Assembly: GCF_012027495.1 (NCBI RefSeq)
Contig: NZ_SNUK01000007.1
Location: 1 to 64,000 of the forward strand
DNA from: Thermococcus sp. JdF3
GTDB taxonomy: Archaea; Methanobacteriota_B; Thermococci; Thermococcales; Thermococcaceae
Reading direction: 5' to 3'
Length of the DNA stretch: 64,000 bases
The translations under genes and the position numbers were made by a program. Positions 10,553 through 58,749 of the stretch are shown piece after piece. The notes under the pieces are model-generated. The model was not told the DNA's origin. It worked only from the letters and a program-made list of their open reading frames with translations, and searched no databases. The first letter of the stretch is position 1, and every line of letters begins with the position of its first letter.

Positions 10553-11341
10553 ATGCTGATCGGAGCCGCGATGATGCCCCACGGGAACCCAGTTCTTGAG
10601 CCCCCAGACGAGGAAACGCGGAAGCTGGCAGGGGTTCTGAGGAGAATCGGCGAGGAGTTCGGGAAAGCTGATTCCTACGTCCTGATAAGCCCGCACAACG
10701 CGAGGATGAGCGACCACCTCGGGGTTGTAATGGCGGAGCATCTCGTCTCGTGGCTCGGCTTCGAGGGGAAGGAGCTCCCCGGCGAATGGGAGACCGACGT
10801 TGAGCTGGCCGAAAAAATCTACCGCGCGGAGAAAGATGCCCAAATGCCCGTCGTTGACCTGAACTTCGCCTCCCTCAAAGGGCAGTATTCAAGGTGGCCC
10901 CTGAGCTGGGGGGAGCTGATCCCGCTCCAGTTCCTTGAGAGGAAACCTCTGGTCCTCGTGACACCCACAAGGGGAGTGTCGAGGGAGACCCTCATAAAGT
11001 TCGGCGAGGTCCTCGGGGAGGTCATTGAAGAAGAGGAAAAAAGGGTCGCGCTGATAGTCAGCGCAGACCACGGACACGCCCACGATCCGAACGGACCCTA
11101 CGGCTACAGAAAGGAGAGCGGGGAGTACGACAGACTGATAATGGAGCTGATTAAAGAGAACCGCCTCGATGAGCTCCCCAGCGTTCCGGAGGAGCTCGTG
11201 AGGAACGCCCTTGTGGACAGCTACTGGCAGATGTTGATAATGCTCGGCGCGATGAGAAAGGCTGAATTCGAACTGAAAAGCTCCGCCTACGCATGTCCTA
11301 CCTACTTCGGCATGGCGGGGGCGCTGTGGGTGCGAAAGTAG
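10553..11341 (+). CDS. DODA-type (class III, LigB-like) extradiol dioxygenase family protein
   Basis: A 262-aa member of the LigB/DODA superfamily, non-heme Fe(II) enzymes that open catechol rings. Likely metal and active-site His are in MMPHGNP (residue 9), SPHNARM (about 47) and SADHGHAHD (about 172-176). The substrate in Thermococcales is unknown; homologues are often labelled 3,4-dihydroxyphenylacetate 2,3-dioxygenase without biochemical support. The ATG at 10553 has GGTGAT six nt upstream and a TATA box (CGTATAAAC, 10515-10523). Confidence 0.8.
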   Translation: MLIGAAMMPHGNPVLEPPDEETRKLAGVLRRIGEEFGKADSYVLISPHNARMSDHLGVVMAEHLVSWLGFEGKELPGEWETDVELAEKIYRAEKDAQMPVVDLNFASLKGQYSRWPLSWGELIPLQFLERKPLVLVTPTRGVSRETLIKFGEVLGEVIEEEEKRVALIVSADHGHAHDPNGPYGYRKESGEYDRLIMELIKENRLDELPSVPEELVRNALVDSYWQMLIMLGAMRKAEFELKSSAYACPTYFGMAGALWVRK

Positions 11342-11359: not shown

Positions 11360-11414
11360 TTGTTCATCTACAATACACAACCCATTTATACTATTGTGTA
11401 TTTGTAATACACAT
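11360..11414 (+). promoter_or_regulatory. Paired palindromic sites around the TATA box of a DUF4143 ATPase gene
   Basis: Site A (11360-11380) is TTGTTCATC-TAC-AATACACAA, an imperfect palindrome. Site B (11394-11414) is TTGTGTATT-TGT followed by AATACACAT, with eight perfectly paired bases per arm. The centres are exactly 34 bp apart, and the TATA box (CATTTATAC, 11383-11391) lies between them. Site B covers the ATG at 11413, which is also the predicted transcription start. Confidence 0.7.
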
Positions 11415-53544: not shown

Positions 53545-54040
53545 CGTCTATCGCCACCAGCAGCGGGAAATCCTCGACTTCGAGAACCCACACCGCCTCC
53601 GGCGTGCCAAGCTCGTCGAGCCAGAGCACCCCCCTGACTTTCTTTATGCTCTTCGCCGCGAGGGAGCCAGCTCCACCTGTGAAGGCGAAGTAGACGGCCC
53701 GGCCTTTAAAGGGCGCCGGGTTCATCCCTCCCTTTCCGATTATCCCGCGGACGCCGAGGGAGAGAATCCCCTCCAGGTAGCGGTTCATCCTCGCGCTGGT
53801 AGTGGGGCCGGCAGAGACGACCTCATAACCCCCATCACCGTTTCTCACCACGGGCCCGCAGTGATATATCACCGCGCCCTCAAAGTCGAGGGGAAGCTCT
53901 CCTTTCTCAGCCAGCTCAAGGATTTTCCTGTGTGCCGAATCCCTGGCGGTGTAAACCGTCCCGGAGAGGTGAACCACGTCGCCGGCCCTGAGAGTCAGGA
54001 CGTCCTCTTCACCCAGAGGAGTTCTCAGCCTCACTGCCAC
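53516..54040 (-). CDS. fumB: Class I fumarate hydratase, beta subunit
   Basis: 174 aa, corresponding to the C-terminal half of class I fumarases. Motifs include DVVHLSGTVYTARDSAHRKI and YHCGPVVRNGDGGYEVVSAGPTTSARM. Works with the alpha subunit to interconvert fumarate and malate; also called the C-terminal fumarase/tartrate dehydratase domain. Start GTG 54040 overlaps the alpha-subunit stop; a second GTG at 54034 is possible. Confidence 0.9.
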   Translation of the reverse strand: MAVRLRTPLGEEDVLTLRAGDVVHLSGTVYTARDSAHRKILELAEKGELPLDFEGAVIYHCGPVVRNGDGGYEVVSAGPTTSARMNRYLEGILSLGVRGIIGKGGMNPAPFKGRAVYFAFTGGAGSLAAKSIKKVRGVLWLDELGTPEAVWVLEVEDFPLLVAIDANGSSLYGR

Positions 54041-54885
54041 ACGTCAACCCTCCCATCCGGCTCTATCCTGAGGAAAGCCCTCCTGTTGGCCCAGCACTGG
54101 ACTATCAAACCGACCGGAAAGCTCGCGGGGTGCCTGTGGGCGACCTCGATTTTGACGTCCAGCGCGGTGGTTCTGCCCCCCATGCCCATAGGGCCCATTC
54201 CGAGGGAGTTGACATCCTCCAGGAGCTCAGCCTCGATTTCTGCTATTCTACCGTCGGGATTCCTCTCCCCAACCCTCCTGAGCAGAGCCCTCTTGGCCAG
54301 ACTCAGCGAGAGGTCCGCGCCCCCGCCCACACCTATCCCCAGTATCACCGGCGGACACGGCTTGCCACCGCATTCCCTGACCCGTTCAAGGACGAAGCGC
54401 TTCACCCCCTCCCATCCCTCGCCGGGGGTTAGCATCGCGAGGGCGGAGCAGTTCTCGCTGCCGCCCCCCTTGGGGAGGACGGCTATCTCGATTTCGCTCC
54501 CTTCAACAAGCTCCCAGTGAACCACCGGAACAAACCGGCCGGTGTTGTCCCCGGAGTTCTTCCCGTTCAGAACATCGACGGCGTTGGGCCTGAGCGGAAC
54601 CTCCCGCGTCGCCCTCCTCGTCGCTTCGACTATCGCCCCCTCCAGCCCGCGAAGGTAAGGACTCTCAACCCCTGCCCTCACGAAGAATGTGAGCGTCCCC
54701 GTGTCCTGGCAGACGGGGATCGAGCCATCCCTCCCAATTTCTACGGCCTTCAGGATGTTTTCGAGGTTGAAACGCGCCACCTCGCTCTCCTCAAACTCGT
54801 AGGCCTTTCTGAGAGCAGAAATAACGTCGTCCGGGATCCTCGTGACGGCCAACCTTATCGCCTCAACGATGGCATCGACAAGCAA
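54031..54885 (-). CDS. fumA: Class I fumarate hydratase, alpha subunit
   Basis: 284 aa, the iron-sulfur half. Cys ligands for [4Fe-4S] are visible in IPVCQDTGT, GSENCSA and CGGKPCPPVILGIG. The start is TTG at 54885 with AGGTGA eight nt upstream, and no other in-frame start is nearby. Cotranscribed with the beta subunit (10-nt overlap). Tartrate dehydratase is the related alternative; malic enzyme next door favours fumarase. Confidence 0.9.
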   Translation of the reverse strand: MLVDAIVEAIRLAVTRIPDDVISALRKAYEFEESEVARFNLENILKAVEIGRDGSIPVCQDTGTLTFFVRAGVESPYLRGLEGAIVEATRRATREVPLRPNAVDVLNGKNSGDNTGRFVPVVHWELVEGSEIEIAVLPKGGGSENCSALAMLTPGEGWEGVKRFVLERVRECGGKPCPPVILGIGVGGGADLSLSLAKRALLRRVGERNPDGRIAEIEAELLEDVNSLGMGPMGMGGRTTALDVKIEVAHRHPASFPVGLIVQCWANRRAFLRIEPDGRVDVWQ

Positions 54886-54900
54886 TTGGCATTCACCTGT

Positions 54901-55818
54901 CTAAATATTCGGGTCTTGATTAAAAAGTTTGACGTGGGAATTTAAAAGCCATCTCCACAAGGGAACCGCCTCGACCTTCAGCCCGTTCTCTACTATTTCA
55001 TCGGAGTAGTCCCACGTCACCAGCGTCCCCCTGTTCACACCAAACAGTTTCATAACCCTGAAAAGGTTCTCCACCTCCCTTGAAGCTACTTCATCCTCAC
55101 TTGAGGCATACGTAACCTGTATGAGTTCGGTCTCCCCTTTATCCCTCACAACAAAGTCCACCTCGCCCTTAGTGTCCCGATAATGGTAGAGTTCAACACT
55201 GTGTCTCTTGTAATATTTGAACCGTAGGAGTTCAATGAAAACTGCGTTCTCCATGAGCCTACCGATGTTTTCCGAAACCTTTGGCAGGACCGCGTTGAGC
55301 ATTCCCGTGTCAACTGCGTAGACCTTCTTATCGCTCCTCACAACTTCTTTGGGCTTGAAGGAGAACTTGGGAAGCTCAAAAATCAGGTAGGCAGATTCAA
55401 GGTACTCGACGTAGTTCTTCACCGTCTCGATGTTACCGATTCCGAGGGCGTTCTTTGTCTTGCTGTATGTAAATCGTCCGGCGAAGTTCGAGAAGAGGTA
55501 GAAGGCGACCTCCTTCAGCTCACGGACGTTTCTGAGGCCGTAGCGGACTATGACGTCCCTCGTGATGATATCGTTGTAGAGATTTATGAGGTACTCCCTG
55601 CCGAAGTGCAGAGCCTCCGGGAAGCCACCGCGCTCGATGTACTCCGTTAGGGCCCTCTTTATCAGAGCCTCGTCCTTCGTTATCTTAACATCCGGCTCAA
55701 TTTCCCGGTACGTTAAAAACTCCCTGAACGAAAACGGCAGGAGTGTATAGCCCAGGTATCTTCCAGTCAGATACGTTGCGAACTCCCGTGAAAGAAGCCG
55801 GGCATTGCTTCCCGTTAC
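54901..55818 (-). pseudogene. DUF4143 AAA ATPase gene, 3' part (split by IS element)
   Basis: 306 codons in frame from the element junction to the stop, starting VTGSNARLLSREFATYLTGRYLG and including the winged helix (NALGIGNIETVKNYVEYLESAY) and the DUF4143 end (GEVDFVVRDKGETELIQVTYASS). It lacks the P-loop. Together with 57287-57661 it makes one 430-codon ATPase interrupted only by the TnpB element. An in-frame ATG inside (55422) could give a fragment, but no promoter is apparent. Confidence 0.9.
55815..55818 (+). other. TTAC target site flanking the left end of the TnpB element
   Basis: The host sequence ends in TTAC immediately before the element. IS608-type IS200/IS605 elements insert 3' of TTAC, and TnpB uses the same tetramer as its target-adjacent motif, so this is the expected TAM. 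Confidence 0.65.
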
Positions 55819-57286
55819 ATTTTTCTCTTCTCAAGCCTCGCCGTTCACGGCGGGGATGCAATAATCAACCCAACCGGTCCTTCAGCAGGAAAGCAACACT
55901 TTTTTAAAGCTTAAAATTCATACCATACTTTGAAATGAAGCGTTCGGTGACGGTCAAACTCCAACCCTCCAAAGAGCAAGAGGAGAAACTCCATCAGTTA
56001 ACAGACCTTGGGGCCAAAGTCTGGAACAGGGTAAACTACCTCAGGCGGCAACAGTTCTTCCAAGGGCAAATCGTGGACTTTAACACGACGGAAAAAACCG
56101 TTTATGAGGAGTTTAAGAAGGAAATCGGCTCTGCAACAGTCCAGCAAATTTGCAGAAAGAATGCGGAAGCTTGGAGAAGCTTCTTCACCCTTGCAAGAAA
56201 GAAGCGGAATGGTGAACTCCCCGAATGGCTTAAGCCAAAGCCACCGAACTACCTGAAGGAATGCGAGAAGAGGAAACCCTTCATAATCCTCAGGAACGAC
56301 CAGTACAGGATTGAAGGGAACAGGTTAATCCTCAAAGGCCTTGGCAAGTTCAAACGCTTGGAAATCCAGTTCAAGGGTAGAATACACTTGAAGGGCAGGC
56401 AGGGACGCTTAGAGATAACTTACGACGAGGTAAGGCGGAAGTGGTATGCCCACATCAGCTTCACTGTGAAGGAAAAGCTTGAGAGTGAGGAGTGGGTTAA
56501 TCTTCCAAGAAAACCAAAGGGGAACCTCTCAGCGGGGATTGACTTGGGAGTGAACAATTTAATGGCCGTTTACGTGGAAAGCGGAGAAAGTTTCCTCGTG
56601 AACGGAAGACCCTTGAAGTCAATAGCTTTTTACTGGCAAAAGAAAATAGCTGATTACCAGTCAAAACTCAATAAAAGTGGCCAGAAGACGAGTAGAAAAT
56701 TCAGGAGAATGCACGGGAAGGCGAAACTCCAGGCGAAGCATTACATCAACACTGTCATGAGACAGACGGTTAAGAGGCTTTATGATTTGGGTGTTTCCAC
56801 AATTATCGTTGGTTATCCCAAGGGCATAGCCCAAAACTCTGATAAGGGTAAGAAGCAGAATTTTATCCTCTCTCACGTGTGGCGGTTTAACACGGTCATT
56901 AAACGCTTGAAGGAAGTGGCTGAGGAGTATGGTATTCAGGTTGTTGTGGTCAATGAGGCCTTCACCTCAAAGACCTGTCCCGTTTGCGGGAAGCCCCACG
57001 AGGGGGCGAGGTTCGTCAGGGGATTATTTAAGTGTCCCGCAACGGGGCTTACCTTCAACGCCGACCTCGTTGGAGCCTTCAACATTTTGAAAAAGGTTGC
57101 CAAAACGATAACCCCGAATCTGGGCGGTTTGTTCGCCCAAAGGAGGGGTAACTGGCCGGAGGCCCGGCCAGAGGGGCTGAAAGCCCGCTTTGAGTTGGGC
57201 TTTAGTGAAGCCCCTCAAACCTCCCCTCCAATGGCGAGGGGTTAATTCACTGGAACCCTCGCCCCTCACGGCAGGGAGGAGGTCAG
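55819..57286 (+). mobile_element. IS605-family element with tnpB only
   Basis: 1468 bp. Both ends have the hairpin-forming CCTCGCC-N4-CACGGC motif: the left end at 55836-55858, the right end at 57257-57280. There are no target duplications and no terminal inverted repeats of the DDE type. The left end follows TTAC, the right end is GGTCAG. It contains tnpB but no tnpA, so it depends on a Y1 transposase elsewhere. Removing it joins codon 125 and codon 126 of the host ATPase without loss or gain of a base. Confidence 0.9.
55935..57245 (+). CDS. tnpB: TnpB, RNA-guided nuclease of IS605-family element
   Basis: 436 aa, OrfB/TnpB family and ancestor-like to Cas12. RuvC acidic triad: Asp203 (GIDLGVNN), Glu341 (VVVVNEAFTSK) and Asp377 (FNADLVGAFNI). 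The zinc finger is CPVCGKPHEGARFVRGLFKCPATG: three Cys plus a His (C348, C351, H355, C367) with the usual fourth Cys replaced by Thr. The N-terminal helix-rich RNA-binding part is intact (VWNRVNYLRRQQ). The TATA-like CTTTTTTAAA (55899-55908) predicts a leaderless start. All catalytic residues are kept, so activity is plausible. Confidence 0.93.
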   Translation: MKRSVTVKLQPSKEQEEKLHQLTDLGAKVWNRVNYLRRQQFFQGQIVDFNTTEKTVYEEFKKEIGSATVQQICRKNAEAWRSFFTLARKKRNGELPEWLKPKPPNYLKECEKRKPFIILRNDQYRIEGNRLILKGLGKFKRLEIQFKGRIHLKGRQGRLEITYDEVRRKWYAHISFTVKEKLESEEWVNLPRKPKGNLSAGIDLGVNNLMAVYVESGESFLVNGRPLKSIAFYWQKKIADYQSKLNKSGQKTSRKFRRMHGKAKLQAKHYINTVMRQTVKRLYDLGVSTIIVGYPKGIAQNSDKGKKQNFILSHVWRFNTVIKRLKEVAEEYGIQVVVVNEAFTSKTCPVCGKPHEGARFVRGLFKCPATGLTFNADLVGAFNILKKVAKTITPNLGGLFAQRRGNWPEARPEGLKARFELGFSEAPQTSPPMARG

Positions 57287-57306
57287 CACCGTTGGATAGT
57301 CGTCCC
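57140..57306 (+). ncRNA. Predicted omega-RNA of TnpB (boundaries approximate)
   Basis: In IS605 elements the guide RNA arises from the tnpB 3' end plus right end, and the guide is the 16-20 nt beyond the element. Here the scaffold would end at GGTCAG (57286) and the guide begin CACCGTTGGATAGTC at 57287. The hairpin at 57257-57280 lies just before the boundary. The 5' boundary is a guess. Confidence 0.5.
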
Positions 57307-57661
57307 TAAGAACCGAAACCATCCTCTCCCAGCCCTCGACTTCCTGAACCTCGTCAAGAACCACGTAATCAAACTCACCAAAAAGCTCGTAACCTGCCTG
57401 CATAAGCCTCCTATAGTCCCCAATCGCGAAACCCGCCATCGCAGGATCCTCAAAGTTCACGTACAGTGGTCTGCCGGGAAGGGTCGCCGAGAGAACAGAT
57501 TTTCCGGAGCGCCTCGGCCCGGTTATTATGTGAGCCGTTGGGCTGAAGTTAGCAAGAATCCTCCCCTTCAGCTCTCTCCCGACGATGTTCTCCCGCTCAA
57601 GCTTCCTGCTCAGGGTATCCCACTGATCAGCCAGCACCCTCTTAAGTTCCTCAACGTTCAT
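57287..57661 (-). pseudogene. DUF4143 AAA ATPase gene, 5' part (split by IS element)
   Basis: 125 codons: the P-loop domain with HIITGPRRSGKSVLS (Walker A) and YVVLDEVQEVEGWERM (Walker B), ending RDDYPTV at the element junction, then six foreign residues and a stop. The ATG at 57661 fits a leaderless mRNA from the minus-strand TATA element CTTTATAGG (57683-57691). Without the wHTH and DUF4143 halves the product is unlikely to work. The same architecture is intact at 11413-12690. Confidence 0.9.
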
Positions 57662-57690: not shown

Positions 57691-57780
57691 GTTTACCACT
57701 ATACTGGCAAACTTCTCATCAAAATCGTACCACCATACTGGTAAACTTTTCCAGCGAACTTTACCAGTATGCTGGTAAAG
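57691..57780 (-). promoter_or_regulatory. Three palindromic operators at exact 34-bp spacing
   Basis: Sites at 57691-57712, 57725-57746 and 57759-57780 share an ACCAnTATnCTGG-like core. The third is a perfect 9-4-9 palindrome (CTTTACCAG, TATG, then CTGGTAAAG). The first matches at seven of eight bases per arm, the second is degenerate in its left arm. All lie upstream of the minus-strand TATA box at 57683-57691, on the side where TFB binds. Confidence 0.75.
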
Positions 57781-57821: not shown

Positions 57822-58739
57822 TCAGCCCTTCAGAACCTCGACTATCTGCTCCGCGACCTGAACACCTGCCCTCATCTGGGCCTCGACGGTCGAGGCGCCG
57901 ATGTGGGGGGTCAGGACAACGTTGTCAAGCTTGGTGAGCGGGTGGTCGGCCGGGAGCGGCTCCTCCTCGAAGACGTCGAGGCCGGCACCGGCGATCCAGC
58001 CCTCCTGGAGGGCTTTGACAAGTGCATCGGTGTCAACGACGGCGCCCCTAGCCGCGTTGATAAGTATTGCGGTGGACTTCATCAGCCTAAGCCTCTCCTC
58101 GTTTATTAGGTGGTGGGTAGCTTCGATGAGGGGAACGTGGAGGGTGACAACGTCGCTCTCCCTGAGGAGGTCCTCAAGGGAGGCGAAGGTTCCACCGACT
58201 TCCCTGGCCCTCTCTTCGTTCGGATAGGGGTCGTAGAGCAGGACGTTCATGCCGAGGGCGCGGGCTATCTTGGCGACCTCGTAGCCTATCCTTCCAAAGC
58301 CAACAACCCCAAGGGTCTTGCCCTCAAGCTCGATTCCCATGGCCTGCTTCTTGGCCCAGGTTCCCTCGCGCATCTTCCTGTCGGCAAAGGCAACCTTCCT
58401 GGCCACGTTGAACATAAGCGCAACGGCGAGTTCGGCGACGCTCCTGCTCGAGGCGCCGGGACTGTTCACGACCTTTATTCCGCGCTCCTTGGCGGCCTCA
58501 AGATCGATGTTGTCCAGACCGACGCCCGCCCTTCCTATGACCCTGAGCTTCGGGGCGGCCTCGATGACCTTTCTCGTCACCTTCGGCTTGCTCCTGACTA
58601 TTATAGCCTCAACGTCCCCGACGAGCTCCAGAAGGCGGGCCTCATCGGGATACTCCTCAAAAACAACGTCAAAACCGGCATTCTTTAAAACCTCAATCGC
58701 CTTCTCGTGCAGCGGTGCCGCAACCAAAACCTTCACCAT
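57822..58739 (-). CDS. serA: D-3-phosphoglycerate dehydrogenase (short form)
   Basis: 305 aa D-2-hydroxyacid dehydrogenase. Rossmann motif GVVGFGRIGYEVA at about 144; active-site Arg in INAARGAVVDTD, Glu in GLDVFEEEP and His in LTPHIGAST. First step of the phosphorylated serine pathway. It lacks the C-terminal ACT regulatory domain. Related glyoxylate reductases of Thermococcales are similar, but the KVLVAAPLHEKAIEVLKNAG start and absence of a GxGxxG variation favour SerA. ATG 58739 has GAGGTGAT upstream; last gene of a three-gene run. Confidence 0.85.
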   Translation of the reverse strand: MVKVLVAAPLHEKAIEVLKNAGFDVVFEEYPDEARLLELVGDVEAIIVRSKPKVTRKVIEAAPKLRVIGRAGVGLDNIDLEAAKERGIKVVNSPGASSRSVAELAVALMFNVARKVAFADRKMREGTWAKKQAMGIELEGKTLGVVGFGRIGYEVAKIARALGMNVLLYDPYPNEERAREVGGTFASLEDLLRESDVVTLHVPLIEATHHLINEERLRLMKSTAILINAARGAVVDTDALVKALQEGWIAGAGLDVFEEEPLPADHPLTKLDNVVLTPHIGASTVEAQMRAGVQVAEQIVEVLKG

Positions 58740-58749
58740 TTCCATCACC

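Follow-up and report, generated by a model that had tools for sequence, protein, structure and literature searches.

The window, i.e., the whole stretch of 64,000 nucleotides of Thermococcus sp. JdF3 that was analysed, contains an array of three palindromic sites located between serA and the start of a split ATPase gene. The locus comprises the following features:

54031-54885, minus strand: fumarase-alpha-like gene, conserved downstream neighbour (name from sequence)
54907-55818, minus strand: C-terminal part of the ATPase (residues 126-429; winged helix and DUF4143; Pfam DUF4143 and Mrr_cat), 90% identical to the intact orthologue P0001
55819-57274 (ends approximate), plus strand: insertion splitting the ATPase gene (OrfB_IS605, Cas12f1-like_TNB), absent from intact orthologues
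55935-57245, plus strand: tnpB/orfB coding sequence within the insertion, 436 amino acids (OrfB_IS605, Cas12f1-like_TNB)
57275-57661, minus strand: N-terminal part of the ATPase (residues 1-129, Walker A; Pfam AAA_14), 97% identical to P0001
57685-57690, minus strand: TATA box TTTATA of the ATPase gene, read from the sequence; a TATA-like element is present at -29 in nearly all orthologues
57691-57712, strand not applicable: operator 1 (TATA-proximal), GTTTACCACTATACTGGCAAAC, 9 of 11 pairs symmetric, kept in orthologous promoters
57725-57746, strand not applicable: operator 2, TCGTACCACCATACTGGTAAAC, 6 of 11 pairs symmetric, 34 bp to either neighbour
57759-57780, strand not applicable: operator 3 (serA-proximal), CTTTACCAGTATGCTGGTAAAG, 10 of 11 pairs symmetric
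57822-58748, minus strand: serA (D-3-phosphoglycerate dehydrogenase-like), conserved upstream neighbour (name from sequence)

The ATPase gene starts with an ATG at position 57661 on the minus strand and, given the position of the TATA box, its transcript is probably leaderless. All three sites lie upstream of this TATA box, as described in the initial annotation, and operator 1 extends at its edge into the expected BRE. The reading frame is broken after residue ~128 and resumes at 55818, beyond a TnpB-type insertion in which no tnpA was seen. The AAA_14-DUF4143 gene at the serA locus is thus not intact in the window and its product is presumably absent there, while intact orthologues are found in relatives.

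The encoded protein carries an AAA_14 domain (Pfam PF13173, above the cut-off) with Walker A and Walker B motifs, the sequences GPRRSGK and LDEVQ being conserved in AAA_14-DUF4143 ATPases, and a restriction-like C-terminal DUF4143 domain (PF13635, above the cut-off). It is also matched by the models of PDC-S01, a phage-defence candidate of PADLOC with the same combination of AAA_14 and a PD-(D/E)XK-like DUF4143 domain (E = 6e-107 for the intact orthologue), and searches of NCBIfam and PHROGs assigned no family. The AlphaFold model of P0001 (pLDDT 91) consists of an AAA+ domain, a winged helix and the restriction-like C-terminal domain. The predicted winged helix at residues 223-276 (helices 223-235, 243-250 and 255-267, strand 271-276; pLDDT above 90) would provide the gene product with a DNA-binding fold. 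In the restriction-like domain E315, D346 and Q359 are invariant, and the lysine usual in PD-(D/E)XK enzymes is missing at the expected position (QVT), making nuclease activity uncertain. The best Foldseek matches of P0001 in the PDB are Orc1/Cdc6 proteins bound to origin DNA, followed by the nuclease Can2, RuvB and apoptosome-type STAND ATPases, all with low TM-scores. The archaeal Orc1/Cdc6 initiators share the AAA+ domain and the winged helix with the ATPase; however, the rmsd is large, the ATPase possesses the additional restriction-like domain, and membership in Orc1/Cdc6 was rejected based on TM-scores of about 0.3 and on the location of the sites at the promoter of its own gene rather than at an origin.

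Re-measurement of the site centres (57701.5, 57735.5 and 57769.5) agreed with the positions and the exact 34-bp period reported before; operator 3, first described as a perfect palindrome, turned out to be nearly palindromic. The three sites share the pattern TTTACCAnYATRnTGGTAAA. A blind scan of the whole 64 kb window for palindrome pairs and triples at lags of 20-60 returned the array as top even-centred pair (score 30) and as top triple (score 54), compared to 39 for the next even-centred triple, 41 for the top odd-centred one and at most 39 in 10 shuffled windows. In the whole genome, the core palindrome has a single location, i.e., the array, even if up to three mismatches are allowed. 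The genome-wide search suggested initially for a core of the ACCA-N6-TGG type gave a divided result: the core alone is too loose (ACCA-N6-TGGT occurs at 23 genomic places compared to 10 for the reversed control), whereas the longer palindrome is specific.

The array was found in about 35 Thermococcus genomes, in each of them behind serA, and all operator matches within the genus fall on the serA locus (61 genomes of the relatives set). A gapped pattern allowing 22-52 bp between the sites was searched in 94 Thermococcaceae genomes; with the exception of one stray match the spacing is exactly 34 bp and all matches belong to one genus. Copies scattered away from promoters, which would have spoken against a dedicated array, were seen neither in the genome nor in the relatives. 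The presence of one locus per genome is in line with the single dedicated regulator proposed in the initial annotation for these putative operators, and it led to the rejection of a global regulator. The serA locus exists in three states, i.e., with ATPase and array, with an array and no ATPase (about 15 genomes), and with neither of them (many genomes). Before orthologous ATPase genes, where the array had been expected, it is indeed present, namely in 19 of the 19 intact genes behind serA. A Pyrococcus orthologue (60% identical) resides in another genomic context, and there the operator has diverged in sequence while the spacing is still 34 bp.

The loci without ATPase retain ~50 bases from the 3' end of its reading frame, joined to the array, a scar indicating that the gene was deleted there and not that it had never been present. 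Moreover, ATPase-bearing and ATPase-less loci are intermixed in a tree built from the neighbouring fumarase gene, implying many separate losses. Disruption of the ATPase gene next to a persisting array is seen in the window, in G021 and probably in G024, further suggesting that this gene is often lost. The best site-pair score lies in a narrow band of about 46-60 with the ATPase and ranges from 63 down to nothing without it (Mann-Whitney p = 0.011 among arrays still detectable), which argues that the array is maintained together with the gene. As judged from these sequence comparisons, an orphan array persists for a time after deletion of the ATPase and then decays. Near-perfect arrays without ATPase (G031, G012, G091 and G094) occur in genomes that mostly have close relatives retaining the gene; recent gene loss may account for them, and another binder is also possible. 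In G096 an orphan array (L079) of four or more in-register sites was observed, with offsets of 44, 78, 146 and 180 counted from serA, where a gap of 68 corresponds to two periods; no ATPase lies alongside, and a 47% identical paralogue is encoded at another place in this genome.

A second array of the same geometry is present in the window:

11360-11414, plus strand: TTCATCTACAATACACAA / TTGTGTATTTGTAATACACA, 34 bp apart and straddling the TATA box (sequence and blind scan)

Among the odd-centred pairs it ranks first in the blind scan, and it precedes the only other AAA_14-DUF4143 gene of the window, which was found by a DUF4143 search and which probably starts at the ATG at 11413 and not at 11293. 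Its operators differ in sequence from those of the serA-side array, and the 34-bp geometry is the same.

To cover the family, 100 further AAA_14-DUF4143 genes with their upstream DNA were taken from Thermococcaceae by similarity to one query, the resulting 122 proteins were grouped into 15 clusters at 55% identity, and similar palindromes occurring in pairs were scored in each promoter, with dinucleotide shuffles setting a 99% threshold and using 51 promoters from the window as controls. Above this threshold are 82 of the 122 AAA_14-DUF4143 promoters compared to one of the 51 controls, and the lag is 32-35 bp in 79 of the 82 (34 bp in 42, 33 bp in 18, 35 bp in 17 and 32 bp in two), a range into which 11% of the shuffles fall; since the genomes are related, these gene counts overstate independence and the safer figure is that 12 of the 15 clusters contain at least one significant promoter with a lag of 32-35 bp. 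For cluster 8 and some single proteins this scoring yielded no significant 32-35-bp array. The operator sequences are unrelated between clusters, as seen for TTGGTACnGTATAnnGTACCAA (35 bp), TTTGTGGTTnGTAACCACAAA (34 bp), TGGTAAAGTTGAGTTTACCA (33 bp), TTTGTGAAAGTnnnCTTTCACAAA (32 bp) and GTGTATTnnTAATACAC (34 bp). In one arrangement the site centres (near -42 and -8) flank the TATA box, in the other (-74 and -40) the TATA box follows directly downstream of them; in most clusters the sites keep fixed positions relative to the TATA box and the start codon, some start codons in the paralogue set being uncertain. A chance origin of the array was rejected based on the blind window scan, the spacing scan of the 94 genomes and these promoter statistics.

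The cluster-1 operator GGTACnGTATAnnGTACC has one locus per genome. In G035, G082, G091 and G092 cluster-1-like operator copies were observed that are not matched to a cluster-1 ATPase; these possibly remained as orphan operators once the gene was lost, as seen at the serA locus. In a set of 39 distant relatives (other archaea and a few bacteria), significance with a lag of 32-33 was reached by six promoters, including that of a Falkowbacteria gene. In other archaea several relatives (L255, L257, L267, L268 and L280) carry a single inverted repeat with its centre at the TATA box, e.g., GGAAACTTTTTATATATTGTTTCC, which is perhaps a variant of the straddling architecture. As a separate observation, about eight of 20 archaeal ATPase_2 (PF01637) genes examined in the genome to which the window belongs (L042-L063) have a significant private palindrome near the TATA box or between the TATA box and the start codon, e.g., TAACTTACCCCGGGGTAAGTAG and CCCCCACCAGTAACTGGTGGGGG; the 34-bp array is absent from these promoters, and a related promoter rule may apply to the PF01637 ATPases.

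Taken together, the three sites would form an operator array that is private to the AAA_14-DUF4143 (PDC-S01) ATPase gene, and we consider it likely that the ATPase binds this operator lattice and represses its own gene. The putative operators are located at the promoter of the gene and are private to it; with one target per genome, a sequence that changes by ATPase lineage and a fixed spacing, the binder would most simply be the ATPase itself. Different sequences at the same spacing of ~34 bp likewise suggest that each ATPase controls its own gene. The ATPase may bind its sites as symmetric units stacked on the 34-bp lattice, each paralogue reading a different sequence and the protein-protein geometry setting the repeat of 32-35 bp, as the constancy of this distance suggests contacts between neighbouring units, which may bind cooperatively. 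The location of sites on the BRE, the flanks of the TATA box and the start codon speaks for repression: here the leaderless promoter would be silenced by covering the BRE beside the TATA box, and in many paralogues by straddling TATA box and start site. Repression might be lifted by a trigger such as infection. Beyond the first reading, the array is one case of a family-wide promoter architecture, pointing to the ATPase as the putative regulator.

It would also be conceivable that the array is recognised by a dedicated transcription factor other than the ATPase, with its gene at another place, and that the ATPase gene is only regulated by it. The persistence of some arrays without ATPase is compatible with such a factor, as is the outcome of a sliding-window test for the protein part that tracks the operator sequence: the winged helix with its recognition helix was not singled out, and residues 49-70 and 317-340 scored better, possibly due to shared indels. 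However, such a factor would then have to exist for every paralogue cluster, each serving a single target and keeping to the 32-35-bp geometry, the interval from serA to the fumarase gene contains no regulator gene, and the operators track the ATPase lineage also in the other genomic context of Pyrococcus, making this explanation unlikely.

The array could further serve the serA-fumarase region, for instance by affecting the fumarase promoter, with the ATPase gene being an inserted passenger, as the about 15 genomes with an array between serA and fumarase and no ATPase might suggest. This is hardly credible in view of the 3' scar of the lost ATPase gene at these loci, the decay of orphan arrays, the many genomes in which array and ATPase are missing alike and the same architecture beside paralogues at unrelated loci. 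Finally, the lattice might mainly act as a loading or recognition site for another activity of the ATPase, such as an Orc1-like assembly on DNA or a role as trigger or self-marker in defence, promoter effects being secondary. The nearest folds are origin initiators on DNA, and the protein is a candidate defence protein with a restriction-nuclease-like domain; yet in most clusters the sites hold a fixed position with respect to TATA box and start codon, which is predicted by a promoter function and not by loading, and such a role is accordingly very improbable. Self-repression by the ATPase remains the preferred explanation.

Defence-type genes having a private palindromic operator at their own promoter are found in toxin-antitoxin systems and among restriction-modification controllers. 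The ATPase gene resembles them in this respect; in contrast to them its locus has no separate antitoxin or controller gene, the ATPase being the sole candidate DNA binder there, and one geometry is common to many paralogues with differing sequences. According to a 2026 survey, PDC-S01 is an ATPase fused to a domain of the PD-(D/E)XK superfamily, ranks fourth in frequency among prokaryotic defence systems and is possibly of archaeal origin; its passages on PDC-S01 mention no regulation or operators (PMC12988326). For most candidates of the PDC-S01 type a defence function is unproven, and based on its sequence the ATPase described here is a candidate defence protein. In the literature covered on DUF4143 and on the 34-bp promoter pattern, preprints and most subscription journals lying outside its scope, DUF4143 is mentioned once in passing, and PDC-S01 is named in three papers.

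Whether PDC-S01 proteins, at least in archaea, are in general self-reading regulators, each recognising its own lattice of 32-35 bp and silencing itself until triggered, with a specificity diversified per paralogue enabling many copies per genome without cross-talk, is evenly balanced in our judgement. The paralogues would represent natural specificity variants of one candidate DNA-binding protein, with fixed spacing, diverging sequence and several of them per cell, and the orphan arrays would mark losses of ATPase genes. PDC-S01 is largely uncharacterised, and the shared promoter rule, which makes predictions on the binder, its sites and their geometry, would offer a first handle on its control.
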